Positions 5,057 through 17,265 of a stretch of 64,000 nucleotides of DNA are shown here, piece after piece. Location: positions 124,001-188,000 of the forward strand of contig NZ_JAUHHC010000007.1 of assembly GCF_030410485.1 (NCBI RefSeq). Reading direction: 5' to 3'. The notes below the pieces were generated by a model. The model was not told the DNA's origin. It saw only the letters and a list, made by a program, of their open reading frames with translations, and did not search any database. Made by a program: the position numbers and the translations under genes. This stretch comes from Roseateles violae (GTDB taxonomy: Bacteria; Pseudomonadota; Gammaproteobacteria; Burkholderiales; Burkholderiaceae_C). The first letter of the stretch is position 1, and every line of letters begins with the position of its first letter.

Positions 5057-5171
5057 GGCACACCTCCGCTGGGATCGGTACGGCTGGGATTTGTCAGCTT
5101 GGTGTCAGCAAATTTAGCATCGAGCGGGCCGGCGTGGGGCCTCGACCTCCTCAATCTTTTCGATATATCGA

Positions 5172-5217: not shown

Positions 5218-6498
5218 ATGCGTGCTGGATGGCTTTGGAAGGGCTTGGCAAGCCTGCTGCTGCTGGCGCCGCTGATGGCGGCGGCCGATCTGCAAGCGGC
5301 CTGGCTGGCGGCGGCCAAGCGCGAGCAGCCGGCGCTGCTGGCCAGCCTGCGCGAGTTCTGCGCGATCGAGAGTGGCAGCCGCGATCTCGACGGCCTGCGC
5401 CGCATGGCCGAGCTGCTGGCCGCGCGCTTGCGCGCGCTCGGCGGCGAGGTCGAGTTCGTCGAGCCGGCCGAGGTCTACCGGATGGAGGACACGCCGGCCG
5501 AGCTGGGCCGCAGCGTCAAGGCGGTGTTCCGCGGCGGCGGCACGAAGAAGCTGCTGCTGATCGCGCATATGGACACCGTCTATCCGGCCGGCACGCTGGC
5601 GCGCCAGCCCTTTGCGATCCGCGAGGACCGCGCCTACGGCCTCGGCATTGCGGACGACAAGCAGGGCCTGGCCGTCGTGCTGCACAGCCTGGCGCTGCTG
5701 AAGGCGCTGGACTACCGCGGCTATGGCCAGATCACCGTGCTCTTCAATGCCGATGAGGAACTGTCCTCGCCCGGCTCGCGTGCGCTGCTGGCGCGGCTGG
5801 GCGCCGAGGCCGATGCGGTGATGTCCTTCGAGGGCTCGGGCGCCAGCAACGACAAACTGTCGCTGGCCACGGCCGGCATCGCCTCGGCCCAGCTGACCGT
5901 CCATGGCCGTGCCGCCCATGCCGGCGGCGCGCCGCAGGCCGGCGTCAACGCGCTCTACGAGCTGGCGCACCAGATCCTGCAACTGCGCGAGCTGGGCGAC
6001 CCGGCCAGCGGCGTGCGCCTGAACTGGACCATGGCCAAGGCCGGCGTCGTGCGCAATATGGTGCCGCCGCTGGCCACCGCCGAGGCCGATGTGCGGGTGC
6101 TGCGCACGCAGGACTACGAGGCGCTGGAGCAGCGCCTGCAGCAGCGCATCCAGTTCCGCCTGCTGCCCGAATCGCGCGTCGAGCTGAACTTCGAGCGCCG
6201 GCGCCCGCCGCTGGAGGCCAGCGAGGCGGCGCGTGCCTTTGGCGAGCATGCGCGCAAGGTCTATGCGGAGCTGGGCCTGGCGCTGCGTGTCGACGCGATC
6301 GCCGAGGGCGGCGGCACCGACGCCGCCTTCGCCGCCCAGCGCACGCAGGCACCGGTCGTCGAGCGCTTCGGTCTGCGCGGCGCCGGCGCGCACAGCAGCG
6401 ACGCCGAGTACATCCTCGTCAGCTCGATCGTGCCGCGCCTGTATCTGGCGGCCCGGATGATTGCCGAGTTCTGCGAGGGCCGGATTCGGACGCCCTAG
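5218..6498 (+). CDS. M20 family metallopeptidase, glutamate carboxypeptidase-like, exported
   Basis: The 426-aa product resembles carboxypeptidase G2, a zinc enzyme that removes C-terminal glutamate from folates or peptides. An N-terminal signal peptide (about 22 residues, LLLLAPLMAAA) suggests a periplasmic location. Metal and catalytic positions are visible: HMDT, GIADDKQG, the Glu-Glu pair in NADEELSSPGS and the C-terminal His in GAGAHSSDAE. The dimerisation domain lies at roughly residues 215-330. The ATG at 5218 is set by a strong GAGGAGG Shine-Dalgarno; the frame open upstream is not signal-like. The exact substrate cannot be read from sequence. Confidence 0.85.
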   Translation: MRAGWLWKGLASLLLLAPLMAAADLQAAWLAAAKREQPALLASLREFCAIESGSRDLDGLRRMAELLAARLRALGGEVEFVEPAEVYRMEDTPAELGRSVKAVFRGGGTKKLLLIAHMDTVYPAGTLARQPFAIREDRAYGLGIADDKQGLAVVLHSLALLKALDYRGYGQITVLFNADEELSSPGSRALLARLGAEADAVMSFEGSGASNDKLSLATAGIASAQLTVHGRAAHAGGAPQAGVNALYELAHQILQLRELGDPASGVRLNWTMAKAGVVRNMVPPLATAEADVRVLRTQDYEALEQRLQQRIQFRLLPESRVELNFERRRPPLEASEAARAFGEHARKVYAELGLALRVDAIAEGGGTDAAFAAQRTQAPVVERFGLRGAGAHSSDAEYILVSSIVPRLYLAARMIAEFCEGRIRTP

Positions 6499-11631: not shown

Positions 11632-13574
11632 CGCAACAAGCCGCCGGCCTGCTGGCCCGCCTGACCGCCGCCTGGGCCGCACGCCGGCAGGCCGCTGCCG
11701 GCCCGGATCCGGCCGACGCCGGCATCGATCCGCGCCTGGCCGGCTGCGCCGACAGGGTCTGCACGGCCGCCGAGGCGGTGGCGCGCATCCAGCCGGGCGA
11801 CCATGTCTTCGTCGGCAGCGCCTGCGCGACGCCGCGCGCGCTGGTGGCGGCGCTGGAGGCGCTGCGGCCGACGCCGGCCGATGTGGAGCTCGTGCATTTC
11901 CTGACCGACCATGCGGTCGCGCACGATGCCGAGGGCCAGCCCTTGACGCGCTTTCGCCACCGCAGCTTCTTCGTCGGCCAGGACATGCGCTCGGCCGTGC
12001 GCCGCGGTCTGGCCGACTATGTGCCGATCTCGCTGGCGCGCGTGCCGGAGCTGATCGCGATCGGCCGCGTGCGCGTCGACGTCGCGCTGATCCAGGTCTC
12101 GATGCCGGACGATTTCGGCTATGTCAGCCTGGGCATCTCGGTGGACGTGATCCCGGCGGCGCTGAAGCGGGCACGCCTGGTGATCGCCGAGGTCAACCCG
12201 GCGATGCCGCGCAGCATGGGCGACTCGATGCTGCATGTCGGCGAGATCGACCATCTGGTGCCCATCGACACGCCGGTGATCGAATACCAGCACCCGACGC
12301 AGCCGGGGCCGGTGGTCGAGAGCATCGCCCGCTATATCGGCAGCATCATCGACGACGGCTCGACGCTGCAGATCGGCATGGGCCGCTTCAGCAACGAGGC
12401 GCTCAAATACCTGAGCGACCGGCGGGACCTGGCCATCCATTCCGATGTCATCACCGACGCCATCATCCCGCTGCTGGAGAAGGGCATCCTGACCGGCAAG
12501 CGCAAGAGCAACCAGCCGGGCAAGATCGTCTGCAGCTTTGCGATGGGCTCGCGCCGGCTCTACGAGCTGATCGACGGCAACCCGCTGTTCTCCTTCCAGC
12601 CGATCGAGGCGGTCTGCGACGCCTGGACGGTGTCGCGCCAGCACAAGATGGTGTCCGTGACGCAGGCCTTTTCGGTCGATCTGAGCGGCCAGGTCTGCGC
12701 CGACCAGTTCGGCGGCGATTTCTACGGCGGCCTGGCCGCGCAGAGCGAATTCCTGCAGGGCGCCTCGCGCTCGCCCGGCGGCAAGGCGGTGATCTGCCTG
12801 GCCTCCACCGATGCCGAGGGTCAGGTCTCGCGCATCCGGGCGGTGCTGCCGGCCGGCGAGGGCGCGACGATCGCGCGCAGCGACGTCCATTACGTGATCA
12901 CCGAATACGGCATCGCCCATCTGTTCGGCAAGTCGATCCGCGAGCGCGCGATCGCGCTGATCCAGATCGCCCATCCGGAGCACCGGCCGGCACTGTTCGA
13001 GCAGGCGCAGCAGCTCGGCTATCTGCCGGCCGAGCAGAAGCTGCGCAATCTGCGTGCCTATGCGGTCGAGGAGGAGCGCCAGGTCATGCTGAAGGACCGG
13101 CGCGAGCTGCTGCTGCGCCCGGCCGGCGCAGCCGATGGCGACGCGGTGCGCGAGCTGTTCCACCGCATGCCCGAGCGCGATGTCTACACGCGCTTCTTCC
13201 GCAAGATCCGCGGCCTGTCGATCGCCGACGTGCAGCGCCTGTGCAATGTCAATGGCGAGACCGAGGTGGCCGTGGTGGCCGTCACCGGCAGCCGCGAGGA
13301 TCCGCAGGTCGTCGCCCATGCGCTCTATGTGCTGGACCCCTCGACCAATCTGGCCGAGACCGCCTTCATCGTCCACCCCGACTGGCAGGGCAGCGGCCTG
13401 GGCAGCCAGCTGCAGCAACAACTGGCCCTGCACGCCAGGGCCGCCGGCGTGCGCGGCTTCGTGGCCGAGATCCTGCCGACCAATGAGCAGATGATCCGGC
13501 TCGCCCGCCAGGGCTCCAGCGAGGTCAGCACCGAGCAGATGGACGGCACGGTGCGGGTGACGACCCTGTTCTGA
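11628..13574 (+). CDS. Acetyl-CoA hydrolase/transferase fused to a GNAT acetyltransferase
   Basis: This 648-aa protein has an acetyl-CoA hydrolase/CoA-transferase class I region at about 40-480. The expected catalytic Glu lies in ITEYGIAHLFGKS, and glycine loops occur at QIGMGRFSNEAL. From about residue 490 a GNAT domain follows (LLLRPAGAADGDAVRELFHR), with the acetyl-CoA pyrophosphate loop HPDWQGSGLGSQL. Such fusions occur across Proteobacteria; the physiological substrate is usually unassigned. It overlaps the patatin gene by ATGA, so it may handle acyl-CoA made from the fatty acids that enzyme releases. That link is inference. Confidence 0.9.
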   Translation: MTQQAAGLLARLTAAWAARRQAAAGPDPADAGIDPRLAGCADRVCTAAEAVARIQPGDHVFVGSACATPRALVAALEALRPTPADVELVHFLTDHAVAHDAEGQPLTRFRHRSFFVGQDMRSAVRRGLADYVPISLARVPELIAIGRVRVDVALIQVSMPDDFGYVSLGISVDVIPAALKRARLVIAEVNPAMPRSMGDSMLHVGEIDHLVPIDTPVIEYQHPTQPGPVVESIARYIGSIIDDGSTLQIGMGRFSNEALKYLSDRRDLAIHSDVITDAIIPLLEKGILTGKRKSNQPGKIVCSFAMGSRRLYELIDGNPLFSFQPIEAVCDAWTVSRQHKMVSVTQAFSVDLSGQVCADQFGGDFYGGLAAQSEFLQGASRSPGGKAVICLASTDAEGQVSRIRAVLPAGEGATIARSDVHYVITEYGIAHLFGKSIRERAIALIQIAHPEHRPALFEQAQQLGYLPAEQKLRNLRAYAVEEERQVMLKDRRELLLRPAGAADGDAVRELFHRMPERDVYTRFFRKIRGLSIADVQRLCNVNGETEVAVVAVTGSREDPQVVAHALYVLDPSTNLAETAFIVHPDWQGSGLGSQLQQQLALHARAAGVRGFVAEILPTNEQMIRLARQGSSEVSTEQMDGTVRVTTLF

Positions 13575-13711
13575 GCCGGCCAGCCGGCCCACTGGCTGTC
13601 GGGATTCCTTACAGCGGCGCGGCGGCGGCTGGCCGTCAGCGGTCCCGCGCCGGCCGGATTAGCCCGTCGATTCAAGCATCTAAGGCGAAAGCTAACCGCG
13701 CCCTCGCGCGG

Positions 13712-13727
13712 TGGCCCGCTTTTTGCT
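13712..13727 (+). promoter_or_regulatory. Sigma-54 promoter (-24/-12) of the PEP-CTERM gene
   Basis: TGGCCCGCTTTTTGCT fits the sigma-54 consensus TGGCACG-N4-TTGCW at all but one position and keeps the required GG-N10-GC spacing (GG at 13713-13714, GC at 13725-13726). The expected start of transcription is about 13738, 24 bases before the ATG. A CCGCGC-CCTC-GCGCGG hairpin lies directly upstream. PEP-CTERM genes in exosortase-bearing bacteria are known to be controlled by the PrsK/PrsR sigma-54 system, which fits. Confidence 0.7.
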
Positions 13728-13761
13728 GCGGTGCTCACTTGTATCGACGAGGGGAAGAACA

Positions 13762-14418
13762 ATGTCATCGAAATTTCGCCATCTGATTGCCAGCGCCTTT
13801 TGTGCGATGGCCGCCCTGTTTGCGGCCCCGGCCCAGGCGACGCTGGTGGTCGGCAGCTGGGATCCGCCGTTCGGCGCGCCGTTCGCCGAACTGGGCTGGC
13901 GTGGCGAGGCGGTCTTCTATGTGGCCGATGACTGCAAGACGGTCGACGGCGTGCGCATCGTCGTGATCAACTGCAGCCCGAGCAAGATGAAGGTGCAGAG
14001 CGCCCATGTGGAGCTCTACAACATCAATGACCCGAGCCCGCAGCCGACCAAGCAGGTGCTGGACTTCACCGGCGACATGTGGCTGCTGGCCGCCCATTTC
14101 GACAGCGCCGGCGTCATCGACGGCATCTCCGCGGTCACCAATCCCTTCCTGATGGAGAAGGGCCTGATCAGCGAGGCCAAGGTCGGCGGCAACGACGTCT
14201 ACTTCTCGCTGGCCTTCGAGTTCCTGTCCGGCGGCACCACCGCCCATCTGGGCTATGCCGTCTCGCAGGCCGGCATCATCCAGGGCTGGAACAACGGCGC
14301 CGACTATCCGGCTGCCGTCACCCTGCAGATCATCGAGTTGCCGGAACCGGCCTCGATCGCCCTGGTGCTGGGCGCCCTGGGCGCTGCCGGCTTCGCCACG
14401 CGCCGCCGCCGCGGCTGA
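13762..14418 (+). CDS. PEP-CTERM sorting-domain protein
   Basis: This 218-aa secreted protein has a signal peptide (about 1-27, ending PAQA). A beta-rich body with two cysteines (around DDCKTV and VINCSP) follows. The C-terminal sorting signal is LPEPASIALVLGALGAAG followed by RRRR. The signal directs cleavage and anchoring by exosortase, normally coupled to exopolysaccharide or outer-surface assembly; no exosortase gene lies in the window. The ATG at 13762 has GAGGGGAAG upstream. A longer open frame from 13711 would run through the sigma-54 promoter, so it is rejected. The gene is monocistronic, convergent with the cyclase gene. Confidence 0.88.
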   Translation: MSSKFRHLIASAFCAMAALFAAPAQATLVVGSWDPPFGAPFAELGWRGEAVFYVADDCKTVDGVRIVVINCSPSKMKVQSAHVELYNINDPSPQPTKQVLDFTGDMWLLAAHFDSAGVIDGISAVTNPFLMEKGLISEAKVGGNDVYFSLAFEFLSGGTTAHLGYAVSQAGIIQGWNNGADYPAAVTLQIIELPEPASIALVLGALGAAGFATRRRRG

Positions 14419-14426
14419 TTCAAGGC

Positions 14427-14447
14427 CGCCGGGCGCTCAGCCCGGCG
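14427..14447. terminator. GC-rich hairpin between convergent genes
   Basis: CGCCGGGC and GCCCGGCG form an 8-bp stem with a 5-base loop, between the PEP-CTERM stop (14418) and the last codons of the cyclase gene (14437). There is no T run, so termination would be weak or factor-assisted. Confidence 0.4.
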
Positions 14448-17265
14448 CCGACAGGCTCTGGGCGCGATCGAGCGCCTCGATCCAGGTCCAGGCGCGGCCA
14501 TCCTGCAGGGCCGCCTCGGCCGCCACCGCACCCAGCTGAGCACTCAAACGCTGTTCCAGTTGCTGCTGCGCCTTGCCGGCCTCGGCCGGTCGCGGCAGAC
14601 CCGCGCGGACACGCGCCTGCTCGGCCGCGGCCCCCAGCGCCAGTGCGATGGCCGGCCGGCCGCGCGCCTCGGCCAGGCGCGCATGGTCGTCCAGGCTTTG
14701 CAGCAGTTCCTCGCGCATCTCGAAGGCGCGGAAGGCGCGCAGCGCCTCGGCCAGCCGCTCGCGCGCGGCCGGCAACTGGCCCTCGTGCAGATCGCAGCGG
14801 CCCAGGCTGGCCAGCGCGCGCGCCACGTCGCGCTTGTCGCCGGCCTCGCGGCACAGCTGCAGCGCGCGCTCCAGATGCTGGCGCGCGGACGCCAGCTCGC
14901 CGCCGCCAAAGGCGACCTCGCCCAGCACCAGCTCGCACTCACCCTCGACCTCCAGGTTCTCGAGCTCGCGCGCCAGCGCGGCGCCCAGGCGCAACTGCTC
15001 GGCGGCCGCCTCGGGCCGGCCCAGGCGCAATTCGATATAGCCCAGATGCTGCAGGGCAATCGCCTCGCCGACCCGGTGGCCCAGCTTGCGGAACAGCTGC
15101 AGCGCCTCGTCCTCGGCCGCGCGTGCCGCCGCCGCATCGCCGATCGACAGCAGGGCCATCGACAGGGTCGACAGCGTGGCGGCGACGCCCGTCTCGTCCT
15201 GCAGCCGGCGCCGCAGCGCCAGGCAGGTCTCCAGCATGCGGCGCGCCTCGGCCGGATCGCCCTGGGTGATGGCCAGCGCCGCGCCGACATAGAGCGCATG
15301 CGCATGGGCCATGTCCGTGGCCTGGATGGCCGGCATCGCCAGCGCGGCGCGCACGGTCTCGCGGCCCTCGGCCAGATAGCCGCGCATGGTCCAGAAACCC
15401 TGCAGCGCCACCGGCAGCTTGACGGCCAGGAAGGGATCGATGCCTTCGGCGCCGCTGCGCGCGGCGGCCAGCGCGACGCGCAGATTGTCCAGATCGGCCT
15501 CGCCCCGCTCGACCCATTCGGCCTGCTGCGCGCCCTGCAGGCCGTCGCGCAGCTGCTTGGCCAGGCCGAAGAAATGGTCCAGATGGTGGCGGGTCAGCAG
15601 CAGCAGCTCGCCGCTGGCCTCCAGCTTCTCGCGCGCATAGTCGCGCAAGGTCTCCAGCATGCGATAGCGGGTCGCGCCGCCGGGCTGCTGGTCCAGCATC
15701 ACCAGCGACTTCTCGACCAGCGAGTCGAGCAGGTCCAGCACGTCGAGCGGATCGAGCGGCGCCTCGCCGCAGATCGCCTCGACGGCGGCCAGCTCGAAGC
15801 CGCCGACGAAGATGCCCAGGCGCTGCAGCAGCTGCTGCTCGCTCGGCTGCAGCAGCTCGTAAGACCAGTCGACCAGCGCGCGCAGCGTCTGCTGGCGCTG
15901 CTGCAACTGGCGGCTGCCGCCGGTCAGCAGCTTGTAGCGATCCTGCAGCCGCTTGTTGATGTCGGCCACCGCCAGCACGCGCACGCGCGCGGCGGCCAGC
16001 TCCAGCGCCAGCGGGATGCCCTCGAGCCGCGCGACCAGCTCGGCCACGGCCGGGGCCTCCCGCTCGTTCAATTCGAAATCGGGCTTGTGCGCGCGGGCAC
16101 GCTCGACGAACAGGCGCACCGCGGTCAGCCGTCCCAGCTCGGCCACGCTCTGCTCGCGCCCCGGCAGCGGCAGCGGCAGCACCGGATAGGTCTGCTCGCC
16201 CGGCACATGCAGGGCGATGCGGCTGGAGGCGATGATGCGCAGCTGCGGCGCGGCGCGCAGCAGCGCATGGGCCAGCTCGGCACATTTCTCGATCAGGTGC
16301 TCGCAGTTGTCCATCACCAGCAGCAGGCGGCGGTTCTGCAGCTGCTTGGTCAGGGTCTGCAGCAGCGGCTGCCCCGGTTCTTCCTGCACCTGCAAGAGGC
16401 GCGCGGTCTCGGCCAGCACCAGGGCCGGATCGCGGATCGGCGCCAGATCGAGGAACCAGGCGCCGTCGGGGAAGTCGCCCAGCAGCTCGGCCGCCACCTG
16501 CAGCGAGAGCCGGGTCTTGCCCAGGCCGCCCATGCCCAGCAGCGTCACCAGGCGGACGCCCTCGACCAGGCGCGTGCCCTCCAGCAGGCGCTTGACCTCG
16601 TCGATCTCGCGCTCGCGGCCGAGGAAGGGCGTCGCCTGGGGCGGCAGATTGTTGGGCACGGCCTTGATCGGCAGCCAGCGCTCGCCGACGCGGGCGACGC
16701 GGTAGCTCTTCTCGCCGTCCGGCGGCGCGCTGAACGGACCGGCGCCGACCTCGAACAGCTCTAGCGGCTCGGACACGCCCTTCATCTGCCAATGGCCATG
16801 CGATTGCGCCCGCTCTTCGCCGGCGAGCTCGCCCAGCGCCTGCACGGCGGCGGCGCTGAGCAGGGTCTGGCCGCCCTTGGCCAGCGCCATCACCCGCGCG
16901 GCCGTCGGCTTGGCCAGGCCCTCGACCTCCAGCGGCTTGGCGCCGCGGGCGATGTCGGCCGCCTCGTTCTCGCGCAGGATCACCGGCCCGACATGCAGGC
17001 CGGCGCGCGCCTTCAGCGGGATGTGCAGGCCTTCCAGCGCCTGGTGATAGGCGCGTGCATAGGCCAGCGCCTGGCTGGCCTGCTCGAACAGCAGCAGCAT
17101 GCCGTCGGTCTTGTCGATCTCGCGGCCGCCATGCGGCGGCAGCAGATCACGGGCGACTCGGTCGTGGGCGGCCCACAGCGCGGCCATATCTTGATCGCCG
17201 AGCAGGGTGGACAGGTGGGTGCTGTCGACCACATCGGTCAACAGCAGGGCGCGTAACTCGCTCAT
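14437..17265 (-). CDS. Class III cyclase domain - STAND-type ATPase - TPR signalling protein
   Basis: This 942-aa protein has three parts. Residues 1-170 are a class III adenylate/guanylate cyclase domain with metal Asp11 (LLTDVVDST) and Asp54 (EIDKTDGMLLLF), plus GLHVGPV before the transition-state region. Residues about 220-560 form an AP-ATPase/NB-ARC-like module, with Walker A GMGGLGKT near 245, a Walker B-like LLLVMDNCEH, and a winged-helix region. From about 600 to the end are tetratricopeptide-like repeats rich in Ala, Leu and Glu. It should be a cytoplasmic sensor in which TPR binding controls ATPase and perhaps cyclase output. Whether the cyclase is active, and its nucleotide, are not known from sequence. 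Confidence 0.85.
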   Translation of the reverse strand: MSELRALLLTDVVDSTHLSTLLGDQDMAALWAAHDRVARDLLPPHGGREIDKTDGMLLLFEQASQALAYARAYHQALEGLHIPLKARAGLHVGPVILRENEAADIARGAKPLEVEGLAKPTAARVMALAKGGQTLLSAAAVQALGELAGEERAQSHGHWQMKGVSEPLELFEVGAGPFSAPPDGEKSYRVARVGERWLPIKAVPNNLPPQATPFLGREREIDEVKRLLEGTRLVEGVRLVTLLGMGGLGKTRLSLQVAAELLGDFPDGAWFLDLAPIRDPALVLAETARLLQVQEEPGQPLLQTLTKQLQNRRLLLVMDNCEHLIEKCAELAHALLRAAPQLRIIASSRIALHVPGEQTYPVLPLPLPGREQSVAELGRLTAVRLFVERARAHKPDFELNEREAPAVAELVARLEGIPLALELAAARVRVLAVADINKRLQDRYKLLTGGSRQLQQRQQTLRALVDWSYELLQPSEQQLLQRLGIFVGGFELAAVEAICGEAPLDPLDVLDLLDSLVEKSLVMLDQQPGGATRYRMLETLRDYAREKLEASGELLLLTRHHLDHFFGLAKQLRDGLQGAQQAEWVERGEADLDNLRVALAAARSGAEGIDPFLAVKLPVALQGFWTMRGYLAEGRETVRAALAMPAIQATDMAHAHALYVGAALAITQGDPAEARRMLETCLALRRRLQDETGVAATLSTLSMALLSIGDAAAARAAEDEALQLFRKLGHRVGEAIALQHLGYIELRLGRPEAAAEQLRLGAALARELENLEVEGECELVLGEVAFGGGELASARQHLERALQLCREAGDKRDVARALASLGRCDLHEGQLPAARERLAEALRAFRAFEMREELLQSLDDHARLAEARGRPAIALALGAAAEQARVRAGLPRPAEAGKAQQQLEQRLSAQLGAVAAEAALQDGRAWTWIEALDRAQSLSAPG

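Follow-up and report, generated by a model that had tools for sequence, protein, structure and literature searches.

The 187-base region that leads up to the start codon of a PEP-CTERM protein gene in Roseateles violae is, on the reading of its sequence, very probably a PrsK/PrsR-controlled, RpoN-dependent promoter that serves a single-gene unit. The gene lies in a window of 64,000 nt (the whole stretch of DNA analyzed; NZ_JAUHHC010000007.1, positions 124,001 to 188,000, forward strand), in which a sigma-54-type −24/−12 element is paired with a PrsR-type box further upstream. Such pairs precede only a few PEP-CTERM genes of this genome, which also encodes the matching trans-acting proteins, and the spacer between the two elements is near the helical phase common to related promoters. 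The promoter itself is of a known type; the phased spacing is the new part. The features of the region are as follows:

13597-13613, + strand: PrsR-type enhancer box (Haft motif 1), TGTCGGGATTCCTTACA, with a TGT-N11-ACA dyad; from matrix and genome pattern search
13614-13711, + strand: 98-base spacer from the box to the −24, close to the mean helical phase found in related promoters; from spacer statistics
13695-13712, no strand: GC-rich inverted repeat ACCGCGC-CCTC-GCGCGGT, ordinary by stem count, no role assigned
13712-13727, + strand: sigma-54 −24/−12 promoter TGGCCCG-CTTT-TTGCT; from sequence reading and consensus counts
13738, + strand: expected transcription start, inferred from the −24/−12 (some 12 bases past the −12 GC)
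13750-13756, + strand: AGGGGAA, probable ribosome-binding region, read from the sequence
13762-14418, + strand: PEP-CTERM protein gene (L030), 218 aa, tail LPEPASIALVLGALGAAGFATRRRRG; matches PF07589 and TIGR02595

Paired elements before a PEP-CTERM gene

The 218-aa product exceeds the cut-offs of both PF07589 (25.8 bits, cut-off 20.7) and TIGR02595 (20.1 bits, cut-off 16) and has what appears by eye to be a signal-like N-terminus. It is not PepA (NF033554), which it matches in the tail only (17.6 bits versus a cut-off of 80). The upstream reading frame stops at 13574, leaving 187 bases before the ATG at 13762, and the next long reading frame (14437-17265) is on the opposite strand; the gene seems to stand alone as a single-gene unit. 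Homologues at E ≤ 1e-4 exist in 14 of 199 genomes (its own included), four others being fuller matches with 33 to 38% identity, and no close orthologue was found either among these 199 genomes or in a genome-contig scan. The three distant homologues with readable upstream DNA (28 to 38% identity) have neither box nor −24/−12 before their start, the fourth fuller homologue (L101) is truncated where its contig ends, and L099 has a −24/−12 with three mismatches inside its own reading frame. Because there is no close orthologue and these three distant homologues lack both elements, conservation could not support the site.

The −24/−12 element reads TGGCCCG (13712-13718), CTTT, TTGCT (13723-13727), with 10 bases between GG (13713-13714) and GC (13725-13726), and it spans the positions from 50 to 35 bases 5′ of the ATG. 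It deviates from TGGCACG-N4-TTGCW at one position and is the sole site in the window with ≤1 mismatch, which bears out the initial annotation of a near-consensus sigma-54 promoter with GG-N10-GC spacing 35 to 50 bases before the start. The GC-rich inverted repeat that this annotation placed just upstream is also present but carries no weight: 119 window positions begin a comparable stem (perfect 7-bp stem, loop of 3 to 8), no terminator-like site was found in 13500-14500 (0.5 expected by chance), and we rejected a regulatory or terminator function for the repeat.

Taken alone, the −24/−12 is within chance for a 64-kb window. Sites with ≤1 mismatch average 0.89 in shuffled windows (61 of 100 shuffles contain at least one), and 9 sites with ≤2 mismatches are observed versus 13.8 expected; across the 5.2-Mb genome, TGGCNNG-N4-TTGCW occurs 36 times and the reversed pattern 8 times. 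A motif-2 matrix derived from foreign sites gives the element 4.9, a score reached by 25 window positions (itself included), but this matrix penalizes TGGCCC because its training matches had been picked for TGGCAC, and it was dropped as a test for this reason. The TGGCCCG half is also present in 12 of 119 related pairs from other genomes (among the matches listed). Since the element alone is within chance, its weight rests on its position before a PEP-CTERM gene and on a partner box 98 bases upstream.

This partner box, overlooked in the initial annotation, is what settles the case for the −24/−12. At 21.4 bits, the 17-bp sequence TGTCGGGATTCCTTACA is the top match of the window on both strands, followed by matches of 16.9 and 8.8 bits. 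Motif 1 was published as a logo in a figure, and we scored the box instead with a matrix built here from 15 sites of other genomes. The training loci were fetched by patterns that fix only (C)TTTACA and TGGCAC-N6-TGCW, applied to overlapping samples of 60 and 399 genomes. Of the 31 loci obtained, 15 foreign loci before PEP-CTERM genes entered the matrix (including L126, kept by hand, whose tail the regular expression missed), and 14 loci at which no PEP-CTERM gene was detected and two that represent this genome's own L024 site (L122 and L130) were excluded. TGTC at the distal end of the box, which was not requested by the pattern, is present in 15/15 of the foreign PEP-CTERM loci versus 0/14 of the others, and the resulting consensus is TGTCRNNNNNYTTTACA, with a TGT-N11-ACA dyad. 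Three loci that match the TTTACA pattern without TGTC (L134, L135, and L142) are likely sigma-54 promoters and form a natural contrast to the PrsR sites; the genes behind them have N-termini that we take to resemble glutamine synthetase.

By plain consensus counting, the box too is not beyond chance: three window sites have ≤2 mismatches versus 1.8 expected, and two of the three have a single mismatch. It is the pair that stands out. When the box (TGTCRN5YTTTACA) is required to lie 40 to 102 bases from a −24/−12, the window contains one pair with ≤1 mismatch in each element versus none in each of 200 windows simulated with a first-order Markov model; at ≤2 mismatches in each, one pair is observed against a simulation mean of 0.01 and a maximum of 1. 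A coincidence of two accidental motifs, with the gene served by a sigma-70 promoter, is thus extremely unlikely. Chance readily yields each motif singly (0.89 −24/−12 sites and 1.8 boxes with ≤2 mismatches expected per window), but it yields the pair in 0/200 simulated windows, and the pair recurs before four other PEP-CTERM genes. A search of 13500-14500 for sigma-70-like sites was also negative, but it carries little information with just 0.1 expected by chance.

The second-best box of the window (5103-5119, TGTCAGCAAATTTAGCA, 16.9 bits) has no PEP-CTERM gene in sight behind it; it was rejected as part of a promoter, the −24/−12-like site at 5246 being 126 bases farther along, within an open reading frame.

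Distribution within the genome and trans-acting genes

A PF07589 search of the genome returns 55 places at E ≤ 1, of which 50 are above the cut-off. Among these 55 candidates, a box above 18 bits precedes only L024, L028, L034, and the gene of the window, L030; L027 reaches 12.9 bits, and all others are at ≤4.0. The same four have a −24/−12 with ≤2 mismatches at −50 to −72, and L046 has one with two mismatches at −144 and no box. The start codons of the 55 genes were picked by a simple script score, and a few (e.g., L009, L010, L017, L040, and L045) may be wrong; a pattern search for the box across the whole genome is independent of starts and therefore unaffected by these choices. This search (YGTCRN5YYTKACA) finds 12 sites, including 13597-13613, versus 9 for the reversed control. 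Five of the 12 precede PEP-CTERM genes with a −24/−12 (≤2 mismatches), at spacers of 62, 62, 64, 74, and, longest of all, the 98 of the window; of the seven other sites, one (L146) has a −24/−12 with two mismatches. In total, 5 of 56 PEP-CTERM candidates possess both elements (4 of the 55 from PF07589, plus L147, which that search missed). The scan of upstream regions that the initial annotation proposed for the same −24/−12 recovers a small set with both elements, and the site is not general for PEP-CTERM genes; the roughly 50 candidates without a pair are probably controlled otherwise.

The additional member, L147, has its PEP-CTERM gene at 1500-2325 of that locus (tail VPEPSGLALAAVALLSLGVAARRRGRR), with a PrsR-type box at G000:C1:1110277-1110293 and TGGCATAGCTATTGCT 74 bases on. 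L027 (G000:C8:439282-439344 and upstream) is a PEP-CTERM gene beside a PrsT gene; its weaker box, TGTCAGGAAAACCTACA, is followed 48 bases on, as read by eye, by TGGCACG with no −12 GC, and the locus is perhaps a decayed or divergent member. The residue at PEPxx[X] also varies: it is aromatic in 0/5 of the genes with box and promoter here and in 6/56 elsewhere (among the matches listed), versus 24 of the 50 readable tails among the 51 other candidates of this genome. This contrast gives a p of 0.06 within the genome and of 2.7e-5 across genomes (among the matches listed, by a statistic that ignores relatedness), and it may reflect the two exosortases.

The genome encodes the trans-acting proteins that such a promoter would need, as the initial annotation had surmised for PrsK/PrsR and exosortase at other loci, and the absence of an exosortase, which it had named as evidence to the contrary, is not what we find. 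PrsR (C8:782203-783537) scores 728.8 bits (cut-off 502.6), the adjoining PrsK (C8:780095-782125) scores 777.3 bits (cut-off 300), and PrsT (C8:783636-786305) comes next, with two more PrsT in the genome. Two exosortases, XrtA (C8:805323-806036) and XrtB (C9:204910-205626), and two copies of RpoN are above their cut-offs. Among 14 control genomes, none exceeds the cut-off for PrsR, PrsK, or TIGR02602, and one does so for PrsT. The region G000:C8:780095-806036 brings together, within 26 kb, PrsK, PrsR, PrsT, the PEP-CTERM gene L028 with its box and promoter, a second PrsT, and XrtA.

Seven further proteins match the PrsR model at 300 to 375 bits, below the cut-off, so that other NtrC-like activators are encoded and one of them could act here, on a true sigma-54 promoter whose PrsR-like box is unused or degenerate. 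The spacer of 98, longer than those given in the available portion of the paper that described the system (PMC1569441), would fit such an arrangement. It is nonetheless unlikely: the box is the best PrsR-type match of the window, the gene behind it is a PEP-CTERM gene, and the spacing comes close to the common phase, all of which favor PrsR as the activator.

Spacer length and helical phasing

Spacers were collected in two scans, one for pairs 40 to 70 bases apart and one for pairs 72 to 102 apart (71 was left out). The scan of genome contigs at 72 to 102 gives at least 118 loci with at least 119 pairs, at least 69 of them before PEP-CTERM-like genes. A regular expression served to detect these genes; two of the matches (L163 and L170) seem to be false positives, and members have probably been missed among the 50 listed pairs that lack a detected tail. 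The scan of 369 genomes of the class at 40 to 70 gives 21 pairs in 17 genomes, and the reversed control gives none. Among the matches listed, the spacers found are 41, 43, 51 (2 pairs), 61-65 (17 pairs), 72-78, 80-88, 91, 93, 95-100, and 102, with peaks at 61-65, 73-75, 83-87, and 95-98. Spacers of 95 to 102 account for 20/119 listed pairs of the longer scan (13 of the 20 before PEP-CTERM-like genes), and exactly 98 bases occur in four other listed pairs.

For the 138 listed pairs of both scans that remain once 2 duplicates of the 119 are removed, the circular concentration reaches 0.59 at a period of 11.2 bases, a value attained by 0/2000 uniform draws. Removing 7 near relatives from the 140 leaves 133 listed pairs with an R of 0.61 at a period of about 11.2 bases, versus a null maximum of 0.34. 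For the listed long-spacer set tested against a smoothed null, 0/1000 draws reach the observed concentration. For the draws of the null models, every third period was scored. The best period differs by subset, among the matches listed: 11.8 for the 67 pairs with a tail, 10.8 for the 50 without, and 11.4 for the 21 of the 40-70 scan. This last set by itself is a concentration, not a period: 17/21 of its spacers are at 61-65, and its best fit within 6 to 20 is 19.9 bases.

From these data, the distance between the PrsR box and the RpoN promoter is likely quantized, changing by about 11 bases at a time across some five turns (about 41-43, 51, 63, 74, 85, and 95-98). The spacer of the window is near the common helical phase, on a longer step: 98 deviates from the mean phase by 1.5 bases at a period of 11.2, by 1.9 at 11.0, and by 2.8 at 10.5. 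The helical repeat of DNA loops in living cells is slightly above 10.5. As an argument against function, the long spacer is thereby weakened, given that 98 is near this phase and recurs exactly in the four other listed pairs. Our literature search, which mostly covered sources outside subscription journals, found no report of phasing at any PEP-CTERM promoter; for NtrC, the available portion of PMC7408454 describes helix-face dependence in one two-site system and gives it less importance at glnALG.

The length of the spacer also bears on whether the promoter is in decay, that is, once controlled by PrsR and RpoN and since weakened by drift of the −24 (TGGCCC), drift of the box (CCT), and a lengthened spacer. 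Its −24/−12 has the low matrix score of 4.9, its spacer is the longest of the five in the genome, and its box ends in CCTTACA versus TTTTACA or CTTTACA in most related boxes, CCT at positions 11 to 13 occurring in 1/119 related pairs (both among the matches listed). Decay is very unlikely all the same: TGGCCCG recurs in 12/119 related pairs and the 98-base spacer in four others (among the matches listed), and the GG, the GC, and the near-phase distance are retained.

Described systems and the predicted mechanism

For 99 of 167 proteobacterial PEP-CTERM genes, the available portion of Haft et al. 2006 (PMC1569441) describes two upstream elements, motif 1 (17 nt, with TTTACA at its end) and the sigma-54 motif 2. 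PrsR is proposed there to bind motif 1, and the spacer is given a mean of 62.8, an SD of 10.6, and a range of 32 to 92; that portion states no phasing, the word “helical” occurring in a reference title. The window presents the same arrangement, with a 17-nt box ending in TTACA (motif 1), then a −24/−12 (motif 2), then a single-gene unit with a PEP-CTERM tail, in a genome with PrsK, PrsR, PrsT, and exosortase, and the 34 bases that separate its −12 from the start codon are inside the range available from that paper. Unlike in that system, the spacer of 98 is above the maximum of 92 given there; we read the range of 32 to 92 as reflecting a sample of 99 sites and not as a criterion of the type, since spacers of 95 to 102 occur in 20/119 pairs among the matches listed.

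The closest experimental counterpart in the sources available is pepA of Aquincola tertiaricarbonis RN12, whose start was mapped by primer extension behind a −24 GG/−12 GC and whose RpoN1 dependence was shown with an rpoN1 mutant (available portion of PMC9850573). Both cases combine a PEP-CTERM gene, a −24 GG/−12 GC, and a predicted upstream enhancer; the promoter is established by experiment in Aquincola and predicted from sequence in R. violae, the −24 is TGGCAC in the former and TGGCCC in the latter, and the proteins are different.

If the promoter acts as predicted, RpoN-RNA polymerase would occupy 13712-13727 as a closed complex, PrsK would phosphorylate PrsR, and a PrsR dimer would bind the TGT-N11-ACA box at 13597-13613. 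The 98-base spacer would then loop, such that PrsR could touch RpoN from the right face of the helix and open the promoter, and the exported protein would be sorted by an exosortase, XrtA or XrtB.

Desulfovibrio vulgaris belongs to a different lineage from the organism of the window. Its response regulator DVUA0057, predicted from the work of Haft et al. to regulate PEP-CTERM genes, enriched five predicted targets in vitro by DAP-chip, and its authors state that no binding motif was validated for this regulator (PMC3333781). Like the system of the window, it joins a response regulator to predicted PEP-CTERM targets, and we infer that it is PrsR because PMC3333781, in the portion available, cites Haft et al.

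The present reading gives an orphan surface-protein gene a likely regulator, and it sets the five PEP-CTERM genes that carry both elements apart from some 50 candidates in which no pair was found. In the phased spacers, many natural promoters together document the orientation that an enhancer-binding protein needs toward its promoter. Were PrsR obliged to approach the polymerase on one side, a period near 11 bases, sustained for about five turns, would be expected, and the 98-base spacer of the window is one of the longest common steps. If the spacing is indeed quantized, the side of the helix on which PrsR acts would be fixed, and evolution would add or remove whole turns of DNA between the activator and its promoter.
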